Part shown: positions 19,924 to 36,372 of the stretch, in pieces
How positions within the stretch are numbered: the stretch's first letter is position 1
Layout of the letters: every line of letters starts with the position of its first letter
Notes under the pieces: generated by a model
What the model was told of the DNA's origin: nothing
The model's input: only the letters and a program-made list of their open reading frames with translations
The model's database searches: none
NCBI GenBank assembly: GCA_001600175.1
Contig: BCJC01000001.1
Coordinates: 1,072,065-1,136,064, forward strand
DNA: 64,000 nt
Reading direction: 5' to 3'
Source of the DNA: Erythrobasidium yunnanense
Lineage: Eukaryota > Basidiomycota > Cystobasidiomycetes > Erythrobasidiales > Erythrobasidiaceae
Translations under genes and position numbers: made by a program

Positions 19924-20725
19924 TGTCTCGCCAAAACGAATGGGCGTTCGACCAGGCTGCAAAGTGTACTCATCTTCCTTCCTTTCACGCATAGCATCCC
20001 TTTACGCCCTCAACCATGGTCGTGACTGCGGACTTGACTAGCGTGATGCAGACAGCTAACGATCAGCTTAAAACTAACACCTTTTGTCGAGACATCCTTT
20101 GCAGACTTGAAGGTCGGTTAGTAGCTACCACGCGAGCACAAACAAACGGCTTCGCAGCACGTGAAACCACTTTCGTCGGTGAAGATGTGAAGAGAGGCAA
20201 GAACATTCCCGTCTGCGATGCCTCTTGCTGCACATATCGCGCCATACATAAGGCAAAACTGCGTGCTATGTCCATATTCTTCGTACCGAGACTGATGCTA
20301 AGTCGAGCAAGTGCAGTATATGAAGTAGAATGACAAGTACGGAGTAATTGCTGCCGAAAGCATCTTTACTACCCAAACTGCGCAAGACAGCCTTACTTCA
20401 AGATGGTATATATATGATGCGTGGAGGCACGCCGAGGCACGGTACTACTCCTTCGCCAGAAACAACATCTCGTCGGGTAATGAAAAAACTGAGACGCCAA
20501 AGCTCTGAAGATTATTGGATTTGAGTACGCTGGCAGCTTTGCGTCTGTGTACAGCAGATCAGATACGATGAATGCTGCATTACAATTCGTCACCGACTGC
20601 CCGACTCCCCAACGAGACTAATACGAGCAAATGAACTTTATGGTACAATGACAAACTACGGCTGACTGATGTATAGGCGGCGTTCTGGTCATCTTGATGT
20701 GACCAAGCCTTCGAGGTCGAAAAGC
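19924..20725. other. Gap between small Cys-rich gene and large minus-strand gene
   Basis: About 800 bp containing two convergent 3' ends and the weak ORF listed at 20016-20333. Confidence 0.4.
20016..20333 (+). CDS. Possible small hypothetical ORF
   Basis: A 105-residue frame with a good start context (CAACCATGG) but no recognised domain. Several Cys residues lie near CDASCCTYR. It may be chance in an 800-bp gap. Confidence 0.2.
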   Translation: MVVTADLTSVMQTANDQLKTNTFCRDILCRLEGRLVATTRAQTNGFAARETTFVGEDVKRGKNIPVCDASCCTYRAIHKAKLRAMSIFFVPRLMLSRASAVYEVE

Positions 20726-23700
20726 TCACGAGTCAGATGTAGATCGGGTGTAAGTCTGCTGAGGAGAAGCGGAGATTGAGCCGTTGCGGGTGAGATTGAA
20801 TTGACCTTCATCGAGACCTCTTGTGAGTTCTTCGATAAGTGCAGCCACCTGGTTCTCGTCCGTTTCGATCACTTCGAGCTGCATCACGACAGTGTCAGGG
20901 ATATTATAGCACTAATGATAAGTGGAGACTCACCACAGACCGCTGCGACGCCGACAAGCTGGGATGTCCAGTTGCTGTCCTGCCGGTTTCTGTAAGTTCG
21001 GCCGCTTTGCGAGCTGCTTGGTTTCTTCGGACCATGAGACGAAGAGGGTCCGAGTCGATTGGCTTTGCTTTTTGAGCCAGTTCTTCTTCAAAGCTATGAT
21101 CGCTGGCTTGCCGCCGATGCATATCGACAGGGAAGAATGACTGTCTATCGACGACGGTATTACGGTCTGCTCGAAGCGACTGTATGATGTTGAAAGCGAT
21201 ATCTCCGTTGGCATACTCTGCGAGCTCGATTCTGGAATGCCGCGATGCTGTGCTTATCCGCCTCATGTCAATGCCTGGAGCTAGTGCGAATGACGCCCGC
21301 TTGAGATCGCTCGAAGCACCTGGAATACGGCCTGAAGCGAGTACAAGCCCAAGATCTGCAGGCAAGCTAGGGGGCGGAGGTATCTCCTCATCATCGTCAC
21401 CGTATAGTCCGTAGATAGACCTCGCATCGTACGAGCCCATGCTCCGGATAGACATGCGCGCGTGCGCCAAGGCAGCATGAGCTGCGCGTGTATCGCTAGC
21501 TGTGGAGCTGGCTGTGACAGAAGGTGACATTGCTTGGGCAATTGCAGGCTGTCCTGCCTGGGGAAAGCTGTCGTTGATCTTAGGAGAAACGGGCAACGGA
21601 TTGAGTGCTTGTTCGACTTCTGATTTCCGTCTATGATGCGACCTAGCCGGAGGAGGTGTAGGTGGGCGATCATGGACAGAACGTCTGGCTGACCCTGTAC
21701 TTGTATCGGCTTCCGAGATACTCTTTCGATGGCCTGAAGTTTTCGGGTCCGGTGACATAGACATGCTGGTATCTGCTGATGGCGGTGTCTTGCGCTCTTT
21801 GCCTGATAGCGTTCTATGCATAGACTTTGATGTGGATGTAGATGCGCTTCTCTCGGGTCCTGGCTTGGTCTGCGCTGTCTGGGGTGGAGTCATGGGATAT
21901 GCAGGTCCTTCCATGCTGAAGGTAGCAGGAATGATGACCGTACTTTTAACGATTCTATCATCTTCGTTTGGCAAAGTCGATTCCCTTCTGGCATTCTTGT
22001 ACCCCGCAGCACCGACCAGCTCATTGACGCGATCTGCATCTAGCCCTAGTGCAGTTGCTGCTTCGAAGAGCTGCTTCATGCTATCGACACTTGTAGCTGA
22101 AGTCCGATCGCCTTGGCCGTTTGCCGGCTCTGTTAGCTGCCCTGTAGAAGGCGCTTCTCTAGCAATTTTCCCAGCCTTGGGCGAGGTCTTGTCTGAAAGG
22201 GTAAGTGGAGCTGTCTCTGCAAAGTTGCTCGTCCCCTGACTGCTGAAAGAGCCATTTGCGCATCGACGATTTACGGCCACAGAGTATGTAGCTGGTACTC
22301 TTGATTCAGAGGAGACCTTGGCTGCCGAAGGGTGAGGAGAGGTGGGAAATGCGTTATGCGCATAGTCGATGATGGAGACCTTGGCTGAGTGCGTACTGGC
22401 CGGAGAGCGGGTGGAAGCAGGAGGAGGTGGAGAATCTAGTATCATCGGATCGGGTATGTAGCCTCTGTGTAGGTCTGTAGACTGCTTCCGCCGCCGTAGC
22501 TTGGACATGATGCTTCGGATGCTAGTTTGTGCATCTCCCGCACGAGACGCTGACCTCCCGCCATGATGCTGCTCCTGCGATACATTGCTGACATTACTGC
22601 CTCCACGCTGCATGGATAGAGAGTCTGACAGGCTTGCAAGCGACGCATCGGCAGACTTTTGGTTGTATGCACCATCCTCCTTCGAAGAGTTGCTTTCAGA
22701 CTCCTTCTTGCTATGTCCAGTACTCTTATTCAAGCGCATCTTGAATTTCAAGCCTGCTGAGCTAGGTTTCCTCGAGAGGCTGCCTTTACCAGTACCATCG
22801 GCTCTTGTAAGCTCCTGATCAGGGGATCTGAGACCAGCTATAGTCTCGACACTGGGCATGTGCTCTAGATTCGCGCTTGCAGAGACTAATTGCGGAGTCG
22901 AGATCTTGAGGTTCTTGGTACTTTTACGATGAAGAAGCGGTTTCCGACCGGTAGGGGCTTCAGGCGAGAGTGGTGGAAGGCCGAAGTCTGCTCTTGTACC
23001 ACCACTGCTGTTCTTCAGAGCATTCGTCGCTTCAGAAGCCTGATGCTGGACATGCCGAATAAGCATTGAAGGCGTAGCATTGGAAGTTCGAATGCCTTTT
23101 GTGCGAAGTATCACGCCCGCTGAAGGTGATGGAGCAGGACTCATCGCCGGTGGTGATGCGGGGAAAGAGGAAGCCGACAAGTCTGCTTTCTGGACCGCTT
23201 CCCTGCCTGATGTCGAGGTAGGAAGAGGTTCAGGAGTAGGGCTCGGAGCAGGTCTAGGATTGAAGTAATCGTTTTCAGAGTGGTCTAGGTCTTCCGTAAA
23301 GCGACTACCTGAAGAAGGTGACATTGTGGTTGATGCGGGAGGCGAAAGAGGTGTGGCATGTCGAAGTGAAGAAGCTGACTTCTGACGAGCGTGCAGAGGC
23401 CGGGAAGAGGGGTGTATAGGTGTCGCTCGCCCACTTGATGTTGGAGAACTGGACTTGTCTTTCTTCTCTCGAGCCAGCGAGTTGGATCGAGAGCGAGATA
23501 ATGAGGAAGCGTCTGCGAAGATACGCATCGGGTCAGTCTTACGATTTTTGTGAAGATTGCATTGGCAGAGTAACCCACTGCTCGGCTGCCGACGTAGCTG
23601 AGACAATGAAGGCATCTGCTCCGCTTCTTCCATGAACGGGCTTCCCAACCCATTCGCACCTTGCAAAGAGGGAAGTATCCTCTCTACCGGGGACTCTCGA

Positions 23701-26700
23701 TCAGTATCAATTTTTCGGTACAATTCGATACTGGGACCGGAAACTGATACTGGAAGAGACTGCGCACTAGCTTGTCTCTCCATAGCTGATTTGGCGAGGA
23801 CATTCTGGATCTCGAGAAGGTCTGCCATGTTCAGGCCTTGGATCTGATTACTGATAGTGTCAGGGTCTGGGTCCTCGGAAGAGACTTGTCCAATCGTGAT
23901 ATGCTGTGATTGCACTTCATCGTCTTCCAGCACGCCAGACAAGCGGTTCAGGTTCTGGGAGCCCGATGGGAAGTCGGCATCAACAGGTGAGAAAGACGGT
24001 CCATTCCAGCTTGATCCGGTACTAATACGGCTCTGGCTTCTACTCGGAGGTTCCTGCTCCTCTTCCGCGATGTCTTGCTGTCCGACCTCCTGAGCAAGAA
24101 AGACCGTATTCCTCGGACTTTCATCTGTCAATCCATCCTGCCCCAATCTTGGGCTGAAGCCTTCGTAATCTCCTTCAGGCACGGGTGACGGAAAAGCATA
24201 TCCATCGAAGTTCGGCTGTTTGACCTTTGCTTGCGCGACTGGTTTAGGGACTTTATACAATGATGAACTCGTAGAGTCGATTGATGAGAATTGTGAATAG
24301 GATGCTTTCGTTTGTCCGTTGGGTGCGGGCGGAAGGGCTAATGAGGGTTGTTGTGAGGGAGCCTGAAACTGTCGAAGAGAATGTAAGGAAGAAGACGTAG
24401 ATGCTGATTTCGGGATAGGAGGTAAGCTGATAGAAGGAGGTGGTGAGAGCGGAGGAGTCGCTTGCGAGTTTAGAGAGGAGATAGAGTGCTGAGATGCAGA
24501 AGGCGTCATTGTCACACTGCCATTGTGCGCATGACGCGTCAAGGAAAAAGAAGTAGAGGTAGAATGGGGAAAAGTGCTTTGTACAGCAGAGACGGGTGGA
24601 GGTAGTCGGACACTTCCGTTGGAAGAACTCGTGGGTAATTGATTCAAGAGCACACTCTTCGACTGTGGAATGAGCTGTAGGATCTGAGGTGGTGCCGACG
24701 AGGCTGGCTGCACTTCTGCTTCTTGCGAGAACTCGCTCGAGTTGGAAGAAGAAGAAGGCACTGGACTGGGTTGTAAGTATGCTAGGCCAGGACTGTGCGA
24801 GCCCGTGCTTGAGATGATAGATGTTGTTGGTCCAAGATGGTTCAAATTCTGCTGCTGCTGCTGCCGCAGATACTGTTGTCGATCGAAGAAGGTAGGCGAA
24901 GTGGGCCTCTCCGTAGCGTTCGTCTGTTCGGACTCTGCCAGTGATACATGTTTATCCACATCTTGTCCCTCATTGTCTTGTTGGGCCTGCTTATGTGCCG
25001 CTGCGTTCAAGTCTTGTATACTTGGTATCCGCAATAGAGGCGGATCGATCTCCTCCGTGTCATCGTACACGAATTGTCTTCCTCTATGGCTCGACGCGTT
25101 CGACGAAGTCGTAGTAGATGAAGAATGCATGTTCCTCTGATATGGTGGGTGTTGCGGGTGGTTACCATTCATATATGGCGCGAGGTATTCTGACTGATTG
25201 TACGTGTTCGTAGATGGATCATCGTGATGAGGATTGGTGAGATAGGACTGGTAGCGCAGTTCGCCAGAATGGCCTTCGCTGACATCGTCATCGTGCGCGT
25301 ACGTGTACTCATAGTCCTCCTCGTCTTCTTCTTCCTCATCACGGAGCATGTCCCGCTCATCTCCTTCACGGTGGTAGTCCTCCTGCACAGGCTCCATAGG
25401 ATCGTCCGTCTCTCTCAACTCTGCCTCGATATCCTCCAGGACCCTCGATATCCTATTTAGCTGTTTCCGCGTCAATGGCATCAACGGCAGTACTGCCGGG
25501 GGCAGCAATTTGCCAGCTTCTTCGCCTTCCACCTCATCATCTCCCAGAGCCTCTTGCCTCTGCTGTTCGTCCGAATCGCGAGGTCTGTATGGATCGTATG
25601 ACATCCGGTTCTTCTGCTTCTTGTCGGCCAGACCCAAGCCATGGTTCAGATTTCGCAGAGGCGACGATATTGGCATAGGCGGCAAATCCTCGAAGCGTCC
25701 TTGTAAGCTCTGCGGGCTTATACTGTCCAGATCTGGGCTCCTCCCTTCCGAAGCGCTCGAGCTTCGATTGCCATTACTAGTAGCGTACTGCTTCCTCGTC
25801 CTACGTCTGTTGGGCGTAGAGGATGCTGATGGTGAAGCACCGGGTGTGGGCGTCCCGCTTGATGAGTGTAGATCTTCATGGCTGGGCTTGATGAATTTCG
25901 ACACGACATCTCGCTCAAGACCACCGCCTCCGAATAGACTGTTCCCGCGCGCTGCATCTCGAGCTGCGTAGAACGCTGCTGCAGATGCAGAAGCTGAAGT
26001 TGGTGTCGAAGCTGAAGTGGAAGCAGCAGAGGCTGGTGCGGACTGCGTCAAAGAAGTCTGCGAGTATGATCTCGTTGGCAGCGGCGATGTGATAGGTGTA
26101 TAAGGTGAATGTGAGCGATTCAAGCGGCGCGTAGAGTTGCTTCGTGATTGTGTGCTTGGCCTCCTCGAATCTGGATTGCCTTCGCCTGAACTGCTTTGAA
26201 AAGTTAGAGACTCTTCTTCCATGTCATTCATCCCCTGATCTGAACTGGCCAAGGCCATAGACTCGCGTTCTTCGGCCCATGTGCCCAGATTCGCTTGATG
26301 TTGCTGGCGAATGCTGTTGTTGCGCTGGAACGGTGACGATGATGACGATGCTTTGCCAGTGTTGGATGCTTCGTAGAGTGACTGTATGCGATACTGCTGC
26401 ATTATAGTTGCCTCTTCGCGTTCGGTAAGCCGGCCGTTCTCGCGCTGAGAGCGGCTGTGAAGCATCTCGTTAGGATTAGTAGGATGCATAGTGATGTTGG
26501 TGTGCCCTTACAGATGCGACTGCATCTTGTCCATGCTGATGAGCGATCCATCCTGAGCTCGAAGACGCGCGAAGAGATCGGGCTGCGATGTCGCTGGATC
26601 AGTTATAGCCTAGTCTGACCACTGACCACTGCATACCAGGATCACAGATGTCCTGAAGTCGTTGCTTGCACCGAGATTGAGTCCAAGAGGCGCCAGTTGC

Positions 26701-26813
26701 GCTGTCGTAGTCGCTGAAGTTGGAGGGGATAGCTGAGCAGAGTCATCGTGTATCTGTGTACTGTTCTGCTGCTTCCCACTCTTGCTCTTGGATCTTAGAC
26801 GTAGTTTATGCAT
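20726..26813 (-). CDS. 1973-residue Ser/Pro-rich protein of unknown function
   Basis: Four exons (26813-26637, 26582-26512, 26454-20934, 20878-20726) close exactly in frame. The N-terminus, assembled across two introns, reads LGLNLGASNDFRTSVILPDL, then FARLRAQDGSLISMDKMQSH and RLTEREEATIMQQYRIQSL. It looks like a conserved folded or helical segment. The huge third exon is low complexity (Ser, Pro, Gln, Thr), with acidic stretches and a Gln run, and many potential Ser phosphorylation sites. A short ordered tail (RLMVRRNQAARKAAELTETG) and the last exon (LEVIETDENQVAALIEEL) end it. I believe similar N-terminal motifs occur in other fungal proteins, but I cannot name the family. A polarity or signalling scaffold is only a guess. 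Confidence 0.75.
24849..24864. repeat. (CTG)n run in coding sequence
   Basis: Short trinucleotide run that encodes glutamines of the large minus-strand protein. Confidence 0.7.
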
Positions 26814-27352
26814 GGCATATTTCTGGGAGTTCGCAGCAGTCAAGAATGATCTCGCGTGGACTTCTGCAAACTCCGACAACCTGCACAGCATGGAGCAAGA
26901 ACGGCGCACAACAACGAGGAAGATATATGCTCAATCCAGTGCTGCTACATACGGCCTTTCTATGCCTTTTCGAACGACGAAGATCCGCCGAGAACTGTAT
27001 TTTTCGCTCTCTAGATCAGCAAAGACCGCGTAACTTGGATTCAAGGACAGCTGAATCCCTCTGACTACTCCAATGACACGTACTCGTCATGCCAGAATGG
27101 CCTGCTTGACGGTCTGTATGGCCAACAAAGGCAGCGAGGAAATGGCACTCTGCCGGGCCAGTTCAAGGGAGCGCTGTAACCTTGATGCAACGAAATCATG
27201 TCGATTTGCACATCACCTCTTAGCTTCCAACTCACAACAAAGACACTCCCTCATCGCGACTCTGCGCCTCTGGTAGGCCTTTCGTCTTTTCGCTCCGCAT
27301 TCTCGCTCCTGCACACCTCAGCCGCTTACAAGCCCTCGTACGTTACTGCACA
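26814..27352. promoter_or_regulatory. Divergent promoter region with first array upstream blocks
   Basis: 539 bp between the minus-strand giant gene and RNxSS unit 1. It carries array block A at about 27145-27174 (CTCTGCCGGGCCAGTTCAAG) and block B at about 27258-27280 (ACTCTGCGCCTCTGGTAGGC). Both recur before units 2-4. Confidence 0.55.
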
Positions 27353-27667
27353 ATGGACCGACAAGCCTATGCTACCCGCATGCGCAACGATGCCGCTCTT
27401 CAGGTGTACTACCTGACTCAGCAAGCTAGGCTATCTGGAACGACGACCAGCTATGGAAACATCTCTGCAGTCCCTGCCATGCGCCGAGATAGTACCAGTA
27501 GTACTAAAAGAGGCTCACTCTCTAGTGCTGGTAGTGGTAGTGACGTCGGCAGCCCTGGTGCAGGCACTATCAACACCGGTAGCGCCCCAAGACAGCGCAA
27601 TAACAATGGTAGACCCAGGCCTCTGGCTCGGAACACATCATCGTTCTTTAGCAGCCCCAGTCGATGA
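27353..27667 (+). CDS. Small Ser/Gly-rich protein, RNxSS array unit 1
   Basis: Intronless, 104 residues: MDRQAYATRMRNDAALQVYY, then a Ser/Gly/Asn-rich body, ending LARNTSSFFSSPSR. No known domain, signal peptide or membrane segment. The support is comparative: the same start style, low-complexity body and RNxSSx(F/Y)F end occur in the next two units, with two shared upstream DNA blocks. A nuclear or RNA-binding role is conceivable from the basic, disordered body, but nothing shows it. Confidence 0.6.
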   Translation: MDRQAYATRMRNDAALQVYYLTQQARLSGTTTSYGNISAVPAMRRDSTSSTKRGSLSSAGSGSDVGSPGAGTINTGSAPRQRNNNGRPRPLARNTSSFFSSPSR

Positions 27668-28109
27668 AGGCAGACACATGTTACCCGCAGATATGCCTAC
27701 CTTCTAATGCATACATGTACTTTTCCCCCGATTCCGCCCACAATAGCAATCGCAAGCGTGTTTTCAACTCTCCTCACTTCGCTACCCAGTTCTTCTTGAA
27801 ACGCTCTGCTAGGGATAGGACACTGGTACTCAGCATTAACATCTGACATATTTGCTAATCCGTCTCTTAGCTGTTCATGACCATCTACAAGATATGACGG
27901 CCAGCAGCCGAGCCCATGCAAGGGAAGTTCAGGGTGGAGGGGCGGCGATCCGACGACCCTCAGCCTCACTGTATCACCACTTGCTCTATATCCAACTTCC
28001 CTCTGCCATAAGTCGCAAGCTCCGTACCTTACTCCCGACTCTGCGCCTCTGGTTAGGCCCAGTCAAATCATACGTTCAGTCCGCTCCACAGCTTGCAGTC
28101 TTGCAGACA
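27668..28109. other. Spacer, array units 1-2
   Basis: 442 bp carrying block A at about 27911-27934 and block B at about 28037-28060 for unit 2. Confidence 0.5.
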
Positions 28110-28559
28110 ATGGACCCTCGAACCGCTGCCTACGCTAAGTACATGGTAGACTACACGCGAGCCATGGGCGATCCCTCGACTGCAGATTTCGCGCAACGCC
28201 ATGCCCTCAAACAGCTTAATCGACAGCCTATCCTACGGAACCCAGCATGGGATACCCCTACAAGCGATCAATTACCTCCTACACGTAGTCGGGGAAATAG
28301 CAATGCCAGCAAGAATGGGTTTGGCAGGGGATCGATCTCAAACGGTAGTGGTTCTACCTTCGCCAGCTCTAGCGCAGGCACATGCAGTGCAAGTACGCCC
28401 AACAGAGGCGGCGGTCGACCTCTGAATGCGCAAGCATCGACTCCTGCAGGCGCCAATGGCAGATTGGTACGAAGCTCCGTCTCTGGCGCTAACTGTCCAG
28501 GCGGTGGTGCGCGACCTTCCATGGCTAGGAACCAGTCATCCTCGTATTTCTCGGTGTAG
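28110..28559 (+). CDS. Small Ser/Gly-rich protein, RNxSS array unit 2
   Basis: Intronless, 149 residues. It begins MDPRTAAYAKYMVDYTRAMG, has a Ser/Asn/Gly-rich centre with Arg, and ends MARNQSSSYFSV. Block B (GACTCTGCGCCTCTGGTTAG) lies about 50 bp before the ATG and block A (CATGCAAGGGAAGTTC) about 190 bp before it. It is the longest member. No family is recognised. Confidence 0.6.
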   Translation: MDPRTAAYAKYMVDYTRAMGDPSTADFAQRHALKQLNRQPILRNPAWDTPTSDQLPPTRSRGNSNASKNGFGRGSISNGSGSTFASSSAGTCSASTPNRGGGRPLNAQASTPAGANGRLVRSSVSGANCPGGGARPSMARNQSSSYFSV

Positions 28560-28930
28560 ATATCAGTCAATGAGCGACGACTTATGCGTTGAAGACTCCG
28601 AGCCTATCCTTTGAACCCTCTCTGATCACTCTGCATCTCAAACTCTTCCTCACATGGGAGTGACAGCATGACACTGCTTCCTCGTCATCTTCAACACAAT
28701 CTATCTGCCCATCTACCTCTCTGCAGGGTGATGATACAAGCTTTTCGCAAGATAGAACGCCAGTCTGCCGAAACCATGCAAGGGAGGTTGCATGTTGAAA
28801 GGGAGGGTAATCTATCGATCAGGATAACAGCACAAATAACTCCTTGTTCTGTCCGTATTCCTACTCCCTTCCAGACTTACATCGTTACTTTCTACTTCAA
28901 CTCCACGCCTCTGATTAGGCTCCGATAGTC
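28560..28930. other. Spacer, array units 2-3
   Basis: 371 bp carrying block A at about 28760-28795 (CAGTCTGCCGAAACCATGCA) and block B at 28899-28920. Confidence 0.5.
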
Positions 28931-29224
28931 ATGCAGAGGAACCCATCCCAAATTCAGATGCAAGAAGCTCGCAAACGCCAACGGTACGCAAGAGGTATCG
29001 CACTGTTCACGATGAGACAGCGAAACGACGTATGCTTCAATGCCATCATGCGAACAGCAGACCCATCATATAACACACATGCATCTCCTGTCAACGTCGA
29101 CCGAAGAGATAGCCGTGCACGAAGCTCTATCTCTGGCGCCAGCACCCCTGATAGCAGTGGCCGACCCGCTGCGAGTAGGAACATATCATCGCCGTATTTC
29201 ATCGATGCAGGCAACAGACGTTGA
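28931..29224 (+). CDS. Small Ser-rich protein, RNxSS array unit 3
   Basis: Intronless, 97 residues. A basic N-terminus (MQRNPSQIQMQEARKRQRYA) is followed by RSSISGASTPDSSGRP and the end ASRNISSPYFIDAGNRR. Block B (CTCCACGCCTCTGATTAGGC) ends only about 10 bp before the ATG, so at least here it would lie in or next to the 5' UTR. Function unknown. Confidence 0.55.
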   Translation: MQRNPSQIQMQEARKRQRYARGIALFTMRQRNDVCFNAIMRTADPSYNTHASPVNVDRRDSRARSSISGASTPDSSGRPAASRNISSPYFIDAGNRR

Positions 29225-29587
29225 GGAAGATCCCCAGCACTCAGTACCTGCAGGTGTACCCACATGCAACGCTGTAATTGCGAGACCCTACGGATGACAC
29301 GGTACTGACCTCCAACAGTGACAATGTGACCTCTCTGCCGCTGATTGTAGCTAAAACCCAGCTTTCACAAGAGTGAGTGCCACTCTACCGGGACCATGAA
29401 AGGGCGTGCTTCCCTTGAAACGGAGGCCATCTGACACTCTTGAGTTTGCATGGTCGAAACGATACATCAGCCATTCATCTTCCTCTCGGCTGATCAAATC
29501 CTTCAAAGCGTCCGGACCTCAACTCCGCGCCTCTGGTCAGACAACCTCATCTATCTGAAACCAAACGCTCTCGCTACGCTCATAAAC
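29225..29587. other. Spacer, array units 3-4
   Basis: 363 bp carrying block A (CACTCTACCGGGACCATGAA) at about 29380-29410 and block B (CTCCGCGCCTCTGGTCAG) near 29523-29540. Confidence 0.5.
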
Positions 29588-29782
29588 ATGTCAAATTGGT
29601 ACCGCAGAAGGCGAGATGATCCGTCCACCAATATCGTCAGTAGTGCAGGTCGGACGCCTCCCATCTCATCGCTCAACACCGTTCCAAGCGGCACCGGTAT
29701 AGCTTCATCCTCTACTTCTGTCTTCTATGTCCCGAGAGGCGGTCAGGATTCCAACGGCGGGTGGATCGATCGCTGGCGTTAG
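29588..29782 (+). CDS. Small Ser-rich protein, RNxSS array unit 4 (short, diverged)
   Basis: A 64-residue frame, MSNWYRRRRDDPSTNIV to SSSTSVFYVPRGG. The C-terminal motif is only partly kept (STSVFYV), but both upstream blocks are present (A near 29380-29405, B near 29520-29541). It may be a decaying copy. Confidence 0.4.
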   Translation: MSNWYRRRRDDPSTNIVSSAGRTPPISSLNTVPSGTGIASSSTSVFYVPRGGQDSNGGWIDRWR

Positions 29783-30247
29783 GATCCCTAGAGGAAGGAG
29801 CCGGCAGATCAACAAGTACTAAACACTCACCATCGTGCCTTTGCAGTAGTACAAGCATCAATCGCTGGGTGGACATCTCAGATTCAGTATCACTGGCGAG
29901 GTGCTGTTCCAGCACATCAATAAACATCGATTGAAACGGCCAAGCTTCCGGTTTTGAGTGTACAGATGATCATATGAGCATGCGAAGATGGCCACTAGCT
30001 GATCTTGTAATGGGACTGTGCCTGCACCGTCAGTTATTCTTTGGCTGGCGGTCCGGCATCGAGAAACGTCTTTCTAGGAGATTGATCTAGCACAAAGTTT
30101 GTTTGATGAGTGTATAGCTACAGCGTCTATGAATGGAATGCTTATCAGTAGAGATGGAAGGCGAACTGTAAAGAGGAGAGGGGTGGGGAAAGAGAGAGAG
30201 GTCGGAAGAAAGAGCCCCTCCTCTTCCAAGATCTGTGCGGCCTCGCA
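29783..30247. other. Convergent 3' region
   Basis: 465 bp between array unit 4 and the acetate kinase stop. No gene seen. A GA-rich stretch lies at 30150-30225. Confidence 0.4.
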
Positions 30248-31716
30248 TTATGGCTTGTCTCCAAATCTCTCCTTGGCCATCTGTGCGCACACCCCTTCTT
30301 CGTCCGTCAGCACTCTCAGCGCTTTAATCCTACTCTCTTTCCCCGTAATCTCCACAACGTCCTCCTCACTCTTTCCCGCATTCTCATTCTTCTCCTCATC
30401 CACTTCTATTCCCAAATACTCCAATTGGTCCAGTATCGATTTTCTCAAATCCGCGCTTTTCTCCCCAATACCACCAGAAAAGATTATAGCATCTGGTCTT
30501 CCTTTTAATGGGATAAGATAAGAACCTATATAATTCAATATCCGATTCTCGAATATCTCAACGCACAGCCTCTCTTTGCCTTCATCACTATCACTTTGAA
30601 TCCCTTTTGAGATCTGTGAGTTGGCTCGGGATTGGATGGAGCCGTATTCATTCGTTCCGCATAAGCCTTGGAACCCGCTTTCTTTATTCAGGATGAGCTC
30701 GCCGGACGCTATGGACATGCCTTTTGTATCGACCATCTTGCCGGAAGAAGAGGGTGAGGGGAAGAGGTGGAATATGAGCGATGGGTCGAGAGAGCCGGAT
30801 CGAGTGCCTCCTGGAAGACCTTCGAGGGGCGTGAGGCCCATCTGCGCATCTCGCCGTCAGCTTATTTGTATGAAAGGTGGGTGGAGTTGACGCACCGTCG
30901 TATCGTAGCTCTTTCCATCTTTGACACAGCACATGCTCGCTCCACTTCCCAAATGACATATGATGAGATTCGTCTCTTCTTCTTTCTTCTGCAAGTAGTG
31001 TGCGACTTTGGACAATATGCTGGTGTAAGACAGGCCGTGGAAGCCATATCTCCTAAGCGGGACGGGCGGTGCATGCTCGGGCTGCTTGATGGGATACGTG
31101 TAGATATGAGGAGGGATAGAGCGGTGGAACTGCGATCAGAATAGGTGTATCAGTGGGAGTGAGGGAATTAGGGGGAGAGCAAGAGGGAGGGCGCACAAGG
31201 GTGTCGAAGCAGAGTAGGTTCTTTGCTTTGGGTAATGCTTTCAGTACTGCTTTTACAGTGAGTACTGCGTGGTGGTTGTGTAGTGGAGCGAAGGCCGACA
31301 ACTATCATCATATAGTCAGCCTGGCCTTAACGCAGTCGCAATGAGTTGGGAGTTGAGACTGCTACCTCCTCCATCCTTTCTAATGCTTCTGGATGTTCCC
31401 TTGTGACCACTACCGGCTCTTCCACTGTCCCTCCATGGACTATGCGATGTGTGACTATCGCTATTTCCCTAGCATCTTCGCTCAATTCCACGCCGTCCAG
31501 TGTATGTAGTTCCTTCAAGATGTCGCTGAAGATGTCTGCATGGGATTCTCCCTTAACACTGATGGTCTTGCTGTCTGATCCATGGTGTATCTTCAATGAT
31601 GCCTGTTCACTCCCTATGCTGCTCGCTGAGAGTGTTGCTATACTTGTTAGTGCTGGGTAGCTGTAGAGGCTGCTCTTCAGGGACGATGACCCGCAGTTCA
31701 AGGCAATCAGATACAT
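30248..31716 (-). CDS. ACK: Acetate kinase
   Basis: Interconverts acetate plus ATP and acetyl phosphate plus ADP. In fungi it is usually paired with phosphoketolase. Four exons (31716-31366, 31301-31197, 31129-30896, 30841-30248) join in phase 0 to 427 residues. Family motifs are complete: [12 protein letters not shown] at the N-terminus, [54 protein letters not shown] and IFSGGIGE. An in-frame ATG at 31740 would add 8 residues, but [12 protein letters not shown] is the normal start. The start codon lies 65 bp from that of the divergent Zn2Cys6 regulator. Assignment is secure. Confidence 0.93.
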
Positions 31717-31781
31717 CGCACTTAGTGGTTGCAATGACAAGGAGCTGTCATTCTTCTGCTAACATTTGCGCGAGTATTGCC
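31717..31781. promoter_or_regulatory. 65-bp bidirectional intergenic region (ACK / Zn2Cys6 gene)
   Basis: The start codons of acetate kinase (-) and the Zn2Cys6 gene (+) lie back to back. Any core promoter must be very compact, or the 5' UTRs must overlap the opposing gene. No CGG..CCG pair is evident within the 65 bp. Confidence 0.6.
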
Positions 31782-34700
31782 ATGGACTACAACGACGACG
31801 ATGTGATAGTTGGAGATTATACTGCAGGATACACTCAACAGCTGCATCAACAACCCACAGCAAGCACATCCACATCCAATAAAGGCAGCTCGAATGGTCC
31901 GGCGAAAGCATCAGGAAGCAAGAAGAACACCAGCAAAGCAGCAGCGAAACAGTCACAATCATCATCACAGTCACAACAATCAGCTGTAGCTGCAGCTTCA
32001 TCCGCTGCGAACCAGGCTGCCGCAGACGACGAAGACAAGAAGAAGCGCTCCTCGAAAGCATGCGACGCATGCAGGAAAGCGAAGCGAGTCGCACATACTA
32101 ACACTAATTGATACATACATAGCCATGCTAATGGAGTGTGTGATTGCGCAGATGCAAATGCACCCGCAACACTAACCCCGACGGTACCGAAGACCCACAA
32201 TGCATGAACTGCAAAGCGAATAGCATAGACTGCACCTTCCTGGGAGCAAGCAAGAAGAGGTGCGCTCACACTCTCGACCAATCTACATAGCCTGGTGCTG
32301 ATGTATGGGATATGCGACTGTCGGCCCGGTTTGTATCGCAGAGGACCACCGAAAGGCTACATTGAAGCTATAGAGAACAGGATGCACAGAATGGAAGCAC
32401 TCCTGGGAGGACTACTCAATAACGACGATCCCCGCGCACAAGCGTTGCTGGAGGAGTAAGTTCAGACCTCAGCTCGTTCGGACTCGCACATTTTAATGCT
32501 GTATCTCTCGCATGGTAACAGCCTCGTCGGCGACATAGAAGCGCGCGAACTGCTATCGAGAGACTTGCTGGTCGCTACAAAGACGGGAAGAGACAATGCC
32601 CCCGTCCTGAAATCATGGCAGAGAGCGACGTCCTCTGCAGCCGGAGTAGCAAGTAGTGGAGGTGGAAGTGCTGCGAAACAAGAAGAATACGACCTACCAG
32701 GTCTAACGAATAACGGGAAGGGAAAGACGCCAATCACGCAGAGGGGTTTTGCACTGCCTGGCTTTGGAGGGAATAGCGGAAGTCAAGATCAGAGTACAGC
32801 AGGGGCGTTTGCGAATATGGGAGGAGGAGTGGGTCAGAGACCGTCTCGGTTATCTGACGAAGATTTGATCGATGGAAGCGGAGGACTGGGCCAAGGAAGC
32901 AACAACTATGGCATGGACTTCAGTACATCCACAGGCAACTTCTCCACAGATGGAACGACGATATCAGGTTCCATGAACGCCTTACAGATTCCTGGCCCTT
33001 CCTCATCTACCGCAGGCAGTCAGCCTTTATCAACTTCACCACGGCATCAACGGCGGCGTCTTGAGCACACGACAAGCGATAGTACCAAAGACGAAGCAGC
33101 CAATAAGCGTTCCAACCTCTTTTTCCAGCAGAAACAGCGATCAGCGACGCTCGCTGCGCCAGCTACTATTCCACATACGGGTACAGCATACTATAATCTC
33201 TCAGCTGGCTTACTTTCGCCGAACAATAACAATATTTCCACTATGCCGGATCTTAATACTGCGGATAGTCCCAGCACGACTATATCAGCGCGATCGCCTG
33301 ATGGAATGACAGAGGGCGTCTCTCCGCCTCTATTATCTACAAGCTTGCAGAATACCCAACAACAACAACAACAGCAACAGCAAGCGAATAACCAATCCAA
33401 CCAATCTCAAGACGGGCCAATGAGCGAATTAGCCGATGTGGTCGGCCAGCTCTCGCTCGACGAGAACCGTGAAGTGCGCTATCACGGTCGTTCCTCTGGC
33501 TTATACTTAATTTCCAAATCCGCACGATATCAAGATTTCTTCTGGCGGTTTCCACGAGCGGGCGTCTGGCCACCCGCTGCTGACGAGTCCAATTTCCATA
33601 AAACAGAAGAAGAGATGTGCGCGAAATTGAATGTCAACAGTGTATTGCCGGATAAGAGGATGAGCGACCATTTACTGGAACTATATTGGATATTCGTACA
33701 TCCGCATATACCGCTTCTCTATAGAAGCTTGTTTGTGAGACAGTATAGGAATACAGTACATGCTGGAGGAGCAGACAATGCACAAGACGGTACAACGACG
33801 TCAACTACGCCCGGCTCAGCGGATTCAGCAAGTGCAATTACGAGTAACGGCAAGCCTGCGCCTGCACAAGCTGTAGGCGGCAAAGTGCCCGCTGTGCTTT
33901 TACTAGCAGTATACGCCGTAGCTGCACGGTACAGCGACAGCGGCGGTCCTCGAATCGAAGGGCAATACTGGACCGCCGGGGACGAATACGCATCTAAAGC
34001 CAAAGAGCTCATCCATGAAGATTTCGGTTCTTCTCGTCTAACAACTATACAAGCTATGCTCCTACTGGCGTATAGAGAGATAGGATGTGGTGCGATGGCC
34101 CAGAGCTGGACGTTCGTGGGAATGGCAGTCAGAATGGCCCAGGATATGGGGCTGTTTAGGGATGTGGATAAATGGTTCCTGCCCGTCAATGCCTTTGGGT
34201 ACGAGGAGAAACAGACAAGGAAAAGAGTCTGGTGGACCGCTATCGTGCTGGACAAGGTGGGTCCATCGTCACATTCTCCCGTTTTGTATATTAATACTGA
34301 TTAATGCGGATTCAAAGTACGTGTCGGCGTACATAGGCCGGCCTATGGCCATCTTCGAGCGAGACTACGATGTCGCCTTACCAGCTGAAGACGAGCCAGA
34401 CGAGCATGATATTTGGAGGCCCATCCGTCCAGATGGTACAGACTGGTCCGAGTCACCCATCATGGACACGTCCGACAATCCCGTCTTAGCACAAGTGCGC
34501 AACTACCCTCAGGGCATAAAATCAAATTCTATATCCTGCTTCAACCATTCCGCCTCTTTATCCGTCTTGTTCTCAAGGATTATAGCGAATCTATATGCTA
34601 TAAGAGTACGAGTGCTCGGACAGAACTCGGAGAGTCTGTTAGCGCACCTGGATCAAGCACTAGCGAATTGGTATATAAATTTACCACCGCATCTAAGGTA

Positions 34701-36372
34701 TAACTCGGCAAGCAGAAGAGTACCTCCGCCACATGTGCTAGCGCTCCATTGTCAGTTCTTCGCGGCACTCATACTGCTGCATCGACCTTTCATACCGGCT
34801 CCTGGGCAAGACAAGACAAAGACCGCTTTTCCTTCCCATTCTATCTGTACGACAGGCGCTACGGCCATCACGAAGTGGGTTTCCTCCACCATCGATCACT
34901 TCTGTAAGCATTGACTGATGTCACGATCGTAGTATCATCGCAGTCTACAGCAAGACATACACTCTTCGGCAGTCCATTCCCATGCTTACGTACTACATCT
35001 TCAGCGCAAGTATCATGCATGTCTATAACTCCACCTACGACGAAGCTCTCGCACCTAGCGCAAAGATCCATCTTGTGAAGTGCATGAAAGCGCTCCAAGA
35101 GATGCATGTAACTTGGGCTAGCGCAAGTCGACAATGCGAGCTGCTACTTGGAATAGTCGATTTACGAGACGTAGACGCTTCGGAATCGAGGTCGAATAGC
35201 AGGATGAATAATGATGAGTCGCAGCAGAGTCGCAAGAGACAAGCAGAGACGCAGGAAGTGGACTCTAGATCGGGATCGGGTAACGCTACGCCTTCGGCAT
35301 CGTTCTATCAGCTTCCAGACAATAGGAGGACCGCGTCATCGACCTCTGCCTCCGGAGCAAGCGGCGCAGGAAGCTCGCAGAATCGATCATCATCCCAGTC
35401 TGGATACGGTGCAAAACCCAAAAGATCCGCTGGTATGAACGTCAGGAGTCGGCACAACTCAGTCACTGCTGCTGGGCTTCGCAAAGATGGCTCCACGCCT
35501 GATTCCAGGATCGCAGCTTCTGCTTTCCAGGCACCACCGGGCGCCTCGGCTTCGTCAGGTCATGGCCTGAGCACATCCGTACCGCTCGCAGACTTTACTT
35601 TCCAATCTCCTTCAGCACACTTTATGGGTTTGCCAAGTACTGCCGAGATACCCACCACATCTTCGATGTTCAACACCTCTAGCATCTTCGATCTTTCCCA
35701 AGGCTTCCAAACAGGTACTTCACCCTCCTTCCCATCGATCAACATAGGCAATCTTCCCACTCCGTCTACCTTTACGACCTCTCTTCCACAAGCTTCCCAT
35801 ATCTCAGCTTTCGCTCAGGAGCCGCATCACAGCTTTGATATACTCAATCTATCATCAGGCTTGTTCGGCGGCGAGTCGAATGATCAAGACATGGCTCCCT
35901 CTGCTTCCGCTCAGCAGAATAACTTCTTCAGCCAGGATGACGGCTCTACAGCAAGCCAGGACCTTTTTGCAAGCATGGGTCTGCCTAGTCCTCCCGCACC
36001 TTCCAACACCAACAATACAACAGGTAGCACCTATACAAACCTGTCGGACTTCCTCATGGATCCCTTCTGGCAAAATCTACAAGCTCAGCAGGACGCGGGT
36101 CACGCTGCTAGATTAGCAGGCGCAGAATCCGAAATGAATTCTGCTGGAATGTCGGACATGAACAGCGGCATGGATTTCTCAAACATGCAATCGAATGCTT
36201 TCTTCAGCTTGTGAGCCTAGGCAAATCGCCTAGCGGAATTTGACTTGCATCAATGCTAACGTCGGAATATTCCAGGTCTCCCCTTGGCGAGCCGTCTCCT
36301 GACTCGTGGTCTGCTTTTCAAGGCCAGAATATGAACATGATGCAAGATCCGCCTGAGTCACAACAACAATAG
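31782..36372 (+). CDS. Zn(II)2Cys6 fungal transcription factor
   Basis: Seven exons (31782-32083, 32152-32259, 32342-32455, 32522-34256, 34318-34903, 34944-36210, 36276-36372) give 1402 residues. After a Ser/Ala/Gln-rich start, the zinc cluster reads KACDACRKAKCKCTRN, then CMNCKANSIDCTFLG. It is followed by RGPPKGYIEAIENR, a linker and dimerisation helix. The middle has the fungal_trans regulatory domain (HLLELYWIFVHPHIPLLYR, AYIGRPMAIFERDYD). The tail is Ser/Asn/Gln-rich and looks activating. Correct cluster spacing (Cx2Cx6C) needs a GC-AG intron after 32083 (AA|GCGAGT); a GT donor at 32087 breaks the frame. It may regulate the adjacent acetate kinase, by position only. Confidence 0.88.
33355..33386. 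repeat. CAA/CAG microsatellite encoding polyglutamine
   Basis: A (CAA)n-(CAG) run inside the Zn2Cys6 gene encodes about nine consecutive Gln. It is likely length-variable between strains. Confidence 0.75.

Follow-up and report, generated by a model that had tools for sequence, protein, structure and literature searches.

According to our analysis, the window, that is, the whole 64,000-nucleotide stretch of DNA that was analyzed (G000:C1:1072065-1136064, from the 20,915,242-base, 10-contig genome of a probable basidiomycete), carries four diverged units in tandem on one strand between about 27145 and 29900. Each unit consists of a block A, then a block B, and then a frame begun by the first ATG after B, as listed here.

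27148 to 27169, plus strand: block A of unit 1, the most diverged copy of A, without CATG
27259 to 27279, plus strand: block B of unit 1
27353 to 27667, plus strand: ORF 1 (104 amino acids [aa]), from the first ATG after B, with RNTSSFF near the C terminus
27903 to 27924, plus strand: block A of unit 2
28038 to 28058, plus strand: block B of unit 2
28110 to 28559, plus strand: ORF 2 (149 aa), from the first ATG after B, with RNQSSSYF near the C terminus
28763 to 28784, plus strand: block A of unit 3
28900 to 28920, plus strand: block B of unit 3
28931 to 29224, plus strand: ORF 3 (97 aa), from the first ATG after B, with RNISSPYF near the C terminus
29383 to 29404, plus strand: block A of unit 4
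29522 to 29542, plus strand: block B of unit 4
29588 to 29782, plus strand: ORF 4 (64 aa), from the first ATG after B, without the C-terminal motif, perhaps a decaying copy

The frames, of 104, 149, 97, and 64 codons in units 1 to 4, start 757, 821, and 657 bp apart along the array (ATG to ATG), which confirms the positions given in the initial annotation, where four frames had been placed at a spacing of 657 to 821 bp behind A and then B. The two blocks had been described there as lying about 95 to 120 bp apart in a constant order, and we measured 95, 119, 121, and 123 bases from the end of A to the CGCCTCTG of B in units 1 to 4, with the same order in all four. The order and spacing from A to B are roughly fixed over the four units, and the distance from the core of B to the ATG ranges from 12 to 75 bases.

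The array takes up much of a 3.76-kb gap between two ORFs on the minus strand. One of them (20904 to 26489) is uninterrupted, encodes 1861 aa, is Ser-rich, and has no Pfam match, while the other (30248 to 30841) is judged by eye to be the end of an acetate kinase gene; the minus-strand stretch from 31330 to 31740 is similar to acetate kinases, with 4h0p as its top match (E = 1.3e-12). Neighboring ORFs include ones with fungal-specific transcription factor, Mitofilin, and Anp1 domains, and several ORFs resemble, by eye, exons of split genes.

When the region from 26490 to 30247 was compared by BLAST with that from 20000 to 36000, units 2 and 3 aligned both upstream (181 columns, 64%, E = 5e-7) and at the coding end (107 columns, 66%, E = 7e-8), and units 3 and 4 aligned upstream (108 columns, 68%, E = 7e-5), while unit 1 gave weak short matches to unit 2 only (E = 0.009 in block B, and 0.025). 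This self-comparison finds the units homologous beyond chance, unit 1 being the weakest member. Mean pair identity over whole units is 0.45. In a conservation profile of 24-column windows, where those with fewer than 60 scored pairs were left out and much of the N-terminal body is consequently uncovered, mean pair identity reaches 0.65 to 0.67 in A and 0.67 to 0.73 in B, against 0.25 to 0.51 in the scored part of the protein body, in line with the earlier statement that conservation is higher in the blocks than in the protein bodies. The C-terminal coding part forms a third, lower peak (0.43 to 0.61), and identity just beyond the stop codon of unit 2 is still 0.54 to 0.57, for which coding constraint gives no explanation. 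Homology reaches outside the two blocks, which are its conservation peaks; within the homologous units, conservation is highest in A, B, and the C-terminal coding part.

The first ATG after B begins the frame in all four units, and the chance of a frame of such length in Markov sequence of local composition is 0.017, 0.006, 0.018, and 0.108 for units 1 to 4, these values not being independent. Constraint on the encoded protein was examined by relocating the observed substitutions and comparing protein similarity over the C-terminal stretch (30 codons for units 2 and 3, 13 codons each for units 1 and 3 and units 1 and 2). In this test, whose gaps were placed by eye in the sense frame and which is thereby biased towards that frame, the sense frame keeps more protein similarity than relocated substitutions give in all three pairs (P = 0.010 for units 2 and 3, 0.0026 for units 1 and 3, and 0.0004 for units 1 and 2), and none of the five other frames passes the 0.05 level in two or more pairs; the best of these, one of the antisense frames, has P = 0.033 for units 2 and 3 and 0.42 and 0.16 for the remaining pairs. 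Synonymous changes are significantly in excess for units 1 and 2 alone (P = 0.032; the other pairs have 0.060 and 0.37), and in the N-terminal block of units 1 and 2 the sense frame is not preferred (P = 0.32). The C-terminal pattern of units 1 to 3 is found at 62 to 69% DNA identity, and codon changes of the AGA/CGA and CGG/AGG type leave Arg in place. At the protein level, the score of units 2 and 3 is reached in 0 of 1,000 shuffles, and those of units 1 and 2 and units 1 and 3 correspond to P = 0.010 and 0.014, the best alignment of units 1 and 2 lying in a Ser/Gly-rich stretch and leaving their motifs unaligned. In units 1 to 3 it is the sense frame that shows C-terminal constraint at the protein level, and the blocks, which might have been the selected unit according to the initial annotation, appear not to be the only one, since this part is kept as well.

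A further property of the sense frames is a lack of Glu, a measure picked after the proteins had been seen and one of six: there is a single Glu among 414 residues of the four frames, where the null gives 12.3 ± 3.4 and none of 3,000 simulations is as low. The five other frames contain 11 to 19 Glu, and among the other ATG-initiated ORFs of 90 to 160 aa in the window (n = 71), 8 contain no more than one, including 1 without any; stretches of 100 aa free of Glu are seen in known genes of the window too, at up to 10% of the positions of one ORF. Codon usage is uninformative as a test of coding, with values of 0.021 to 0.099 for the sense frames, 0.000 to 0.070 for reference ORFs, and an overlapping range for other frames. 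Taken together, the frame test, the first-ATG frames, the protein scores, and the lack of Glu, which are not independent of one another, favor small-protein genes. Open frames are also present on the opposite strand of units 1 to 3 (27451 to 27636, 28268 to 28570, and 28954 to 29265, minus strand; 61, 100, and 103 codons), the three sharing one relative frame; within the array, at least 97 codons are open from 4.5% of antisense start points.

Unit 4 keeps A and B intact, and its frame ends without the RN-x-SS motif. Its protein has no significant similarity to the other three (P = 0.26, 0.33, and 0.67), and a stretch that is similar to the other units in DNA, not above shuffles, lies in a different frame with an early stop. 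Judging from these features, unit 4 may be a decaying copy whose coding function is disappearing or already gone; an assembly error or chance resemblance is the alternative for this stretch. Four small genes had been noted initially, of which unit 4 is doubtful.

The four proteins have predicted pI values of 11.7, 11.1, 11.5, and 11.2 and net charges of +9.5, +10.6, +9.6, and +3.5 (ORFs 1 to 4), with 13 to 19% Ser, 9 to 16% Arg, and 5 Lys in total. In a simulation of the four frames, Ser is high (P = 0.004), Asp is somewhat high (P = 0.033) and not depleted (20, null 12.9), and Lys is low (P = 0.04). Their basic nature is itself no evidence of selection, because Arg (P = 0.20) and net charge (35, null 30.9, P = 0.34) match the expectation from composition. 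The ending RNxSSx(F/Y)F noted for three proteins is indeed present in units 1 to 3, but it is near-terminal, with 2 to 7 residues following it, and in RNTSSFF of unit 1 SS is followed directly by FF. Over all six frames of the window, RN-x-SS-(x)-(F/Y)F has three occurrences, each within the array, and across 76 loci of the genome it is found only in those overlapping the array. A structure model of ORF 3 built from the four-sequence alignment has helices at residues 5 to 31 and 34 to 41 and no fold in the rest, at low confidence (mean pLDDT 56.7, pTM 0.25), and a search for amphipathic helices found nothing striking, the largest moments being 0.24 to 0.40 with starts in the first 45 residues. 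The proteins are best read as small and largely disordered, with a near-terminal aromatic motif. Units 1 and 3 also contain RRDS, which we take to be a PKA-type site.

Relatives of the four proteins were sought in the organism's own genome, in Pfam, and among PDB sequences, and for ORF 3 also in prokaryote and viral contigs. Within the genome, ORF 3 finds ORF 2 (E = 0.05) and ORF 2 finds ORF 3 (E = 0.07), ORF 4 finds itself alone, and ORF 1 finds itself and one chance-level place with two internal stops (E = 0.74). A genome search with the last 30 residues of ORF 3 matched ORF 2 (E = 0.06) and nothing outside the array. DNA queries with the whole array and with one upstream segment returned only self-matches from the genome. 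No match to Pfam was obtained with six translations at E values up to 10, and no credible one among PDB sequences, where there was one chance hit (E = 1.9); the view that this is no known family therefore holds for these libraries. For ORF 3, the scan of prokaryote contigs gave 91 pattern matches and that of viral contigs 29, of which 0 were confirmed, and such an array was not noticed in the titles and abstract openings of the papers found. Since the protein searches miss some sister units (ORFs 1 and 4 find none), equally diverged copies elsewhere would escape them. On the best reading, the family would be lineage-specific.

The pattern of paired blocks is the stronger test of uniqueness because the protein and DNA searches fail to show all sister units. 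The pair pattern MAAGGGN{94,124}CGCCTCTGRT was composed from the four units, so that only the absence of further places is informative; in the 20.9-Mb genome it gives 5 rows, all in the four units (two rows of unit 3 share one B), with no place elsewhere and 0 in the reversed control. The B pattern without mismatch occurs in the genome at these four places only, and with up to two mismatches at 80 places against 60 for the reversed control, near background; in the window, with up to three mismatches, it has 4 matches against 1.00 expected, a count reached by 1 of 100 shuffles. Block A alone is weak in the window, where it has 3 matches against 1.43 expected and 15 of 100 shuffles contain as many. 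When the window was scanned with a profile of the A-B segment, the result was the four units, whose E values are circular, and two chance rows on the minus strand (E = 2.2 and 8.4). We rejected A and B as sites scattered genome-wide on the evidence of 55 loci examined outside the array, which on both strands hold 27 A-like and 293 B-like sites and no pair 80 to 140 bases apart, in a test that recovers units 2 to 4 and misses unit 1 because its block A departs too far from the pattern. With up to two mismatches, the block A pattern occurs at 178 places in the whole genome, of which the first hits were examined, against 91 in the reversed control, an excess of about twofold that might reflect a more general site or an effect of composition.

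A structural or small-RNA role of the blocks, raised in the initial annotation, is not supported. Nothing in the window matches Rfam at the gathering threshold, with two chance-level matches below it in the array, none of eight segments folds in excess (z from -1.68 to 1.16), and the four A-B segments give a weak consensus fold (-6.47 kcal/mol); among its 18 weak pairs, 7 have both-sided changes that still pair in at least one of the four sequences. The D-arm-like look of block B suggested a tRNA or Pol III origin, which was rejected, as ARAGORN found 0 tRNAs in the window. Block B as a splice site (its copies end near AG) was likewise dismissed, no common GTRNGT-like donor being visible by eye in the A-B stretches. 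A scan for bacterial-type promoters and terminators, ill-suited to a fungus, found 2 and 0, with no excess over shuffles. Elsewhere in the genome, a partial 5.8S rRNA-like stretch (G000:C1:4391638-4391762, minus strand; 61.1 bits, above the family cutoff) precedes by about 300 bases a gene that by eye is HSP70-like, and no other rRNA part was noticed within the 3 kb read around it.

We deem it probable that the array is a gene family with copies of its promoter blocks, derived by old local tandem duplication of one lineage-specific small-protein gene. One small gene would have been duplicated long ago into four head-to-tail units, whose upstream DNA and, in three copies, protein tail would have stayed similar while the remainder drifted. 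Given their position and conservation, A and B are most simply read as regulatory blocks (putative promoter or leader): A may be an upstream activator site, B may mark the transcription start or form part of the 5' leader, and copies sharing both could be expressed together. The product would be a small, mostly disordered protein rich in Ser, Gly, Asn, and Arg with a helical N terminus, which may dock on a partner via R-P-x-x-(A/S)-R-N-x-S-S-(x)-(F/Y)-F, docking that phosphorylation at RRDS in units 1 and 3 might control. Such an adaptor role, suggested by the kept motif, is a tentative proposal.

Alternatively, the units could be non-coding, with A and B belonging to a repeated RNA or a regulatory island (for example, for a neighbor gene) and the frames arising as by-products of base composition. 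The greater conservation of the blocks than of the bodies, their retention in unit 4 without a related protein, the charge at the level predicted by composition, the antisense frames of 61, 100, and 103 codons, the 4.5% of antisense starts that open at least 97, and the 7 weak pairs that keep pairing would fit this explanation. However, we consider it unlikely in view of the sense-frame constraint in all three C-terminal pairs, a lack of Glu specific to the sense frame, the first-ATG frames of all four units, the Rfam result with chance-level matches only, and the eight segments without excess folding. It is still less probable that the array is a relic in which all the duplicated genes are decaying and the similarities are left over: whole-unit identity of only 0.45, a seemingly broken unit 4, and the lack of any member outside the array in the genome searches agree with decay, but units 1 to 3 retain frames of 97 to 149 codons with a common C-terminal pattern at 62 to 69% DNA identity, and Arg is maintained through AGA/CGA and CGG/AGG changes.

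Within the favored interpretation of a duplicated small-protein gene, the near-terminal motif is unexplained and the lack of Glu is odd. We would give very little credence to the more far-reaching idea of an undescribed fungal small-protein family nearly devoid of Glu, with a fast-changing body between a conserved promoter pair and a C-terminal docking motif, the odds of which are reduced because the basic charge is no more than composition gives. If it were true, the copies would vary their cargo while keeping expression timing and binding partner, and the lack of Glu might permit synthesis when tRNA-Glu is short or serve nucleic acid packaging. At present this is one small gene family in one genome; if expressed, it would be a compact natural test of duplicated orphan genes that retain regulation and a binding motif while the rest drifts, and the motif is a handle for finding the partner.

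Among known systems, the sperm nuclear basic proteins and protamines of animals (PMC9917458) resemble the array proteins in being small, basic, and fast evolving, a comparison which is our own. Compared by description, they differ in that Arg here is 9 to 16%, charge is no more than composition gives, and the organism is a fungus and not an animal. The Arg content of protamines is far above this range. Another likeness is to PIP-box proteins, which carry Q-x-x-(aliphatic)-x-x-aromatic-aromatic and include the fungal ribonucleotide reductase inhibitors Spd1/Dif1, small disordered proteins likewise having a motif that ends in two aromatic residues. PIP-box identity was rejected since position 1 is A in unit 1 and R in the two others, never Gln, and position 4 is T in unit 1 and S in the two others, never aliphatic, and the array proteins differ from Spd1/Dif1 also in having no Pfam match at E values up to 10. 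Local tandem arrays of lineage-specific small-protein genes exist in fungi as a general kind, and the array looks ordinary in kind, a local diverged small-gene family and not a new kind of element. It shares with them head-to-tail copies at one place, diverging bodies, and common upstream sequence, whereas here the upstream sequence holds two sharp blocks and the kept part of the protein is a short near-terminal motif unnamed in Pfam.
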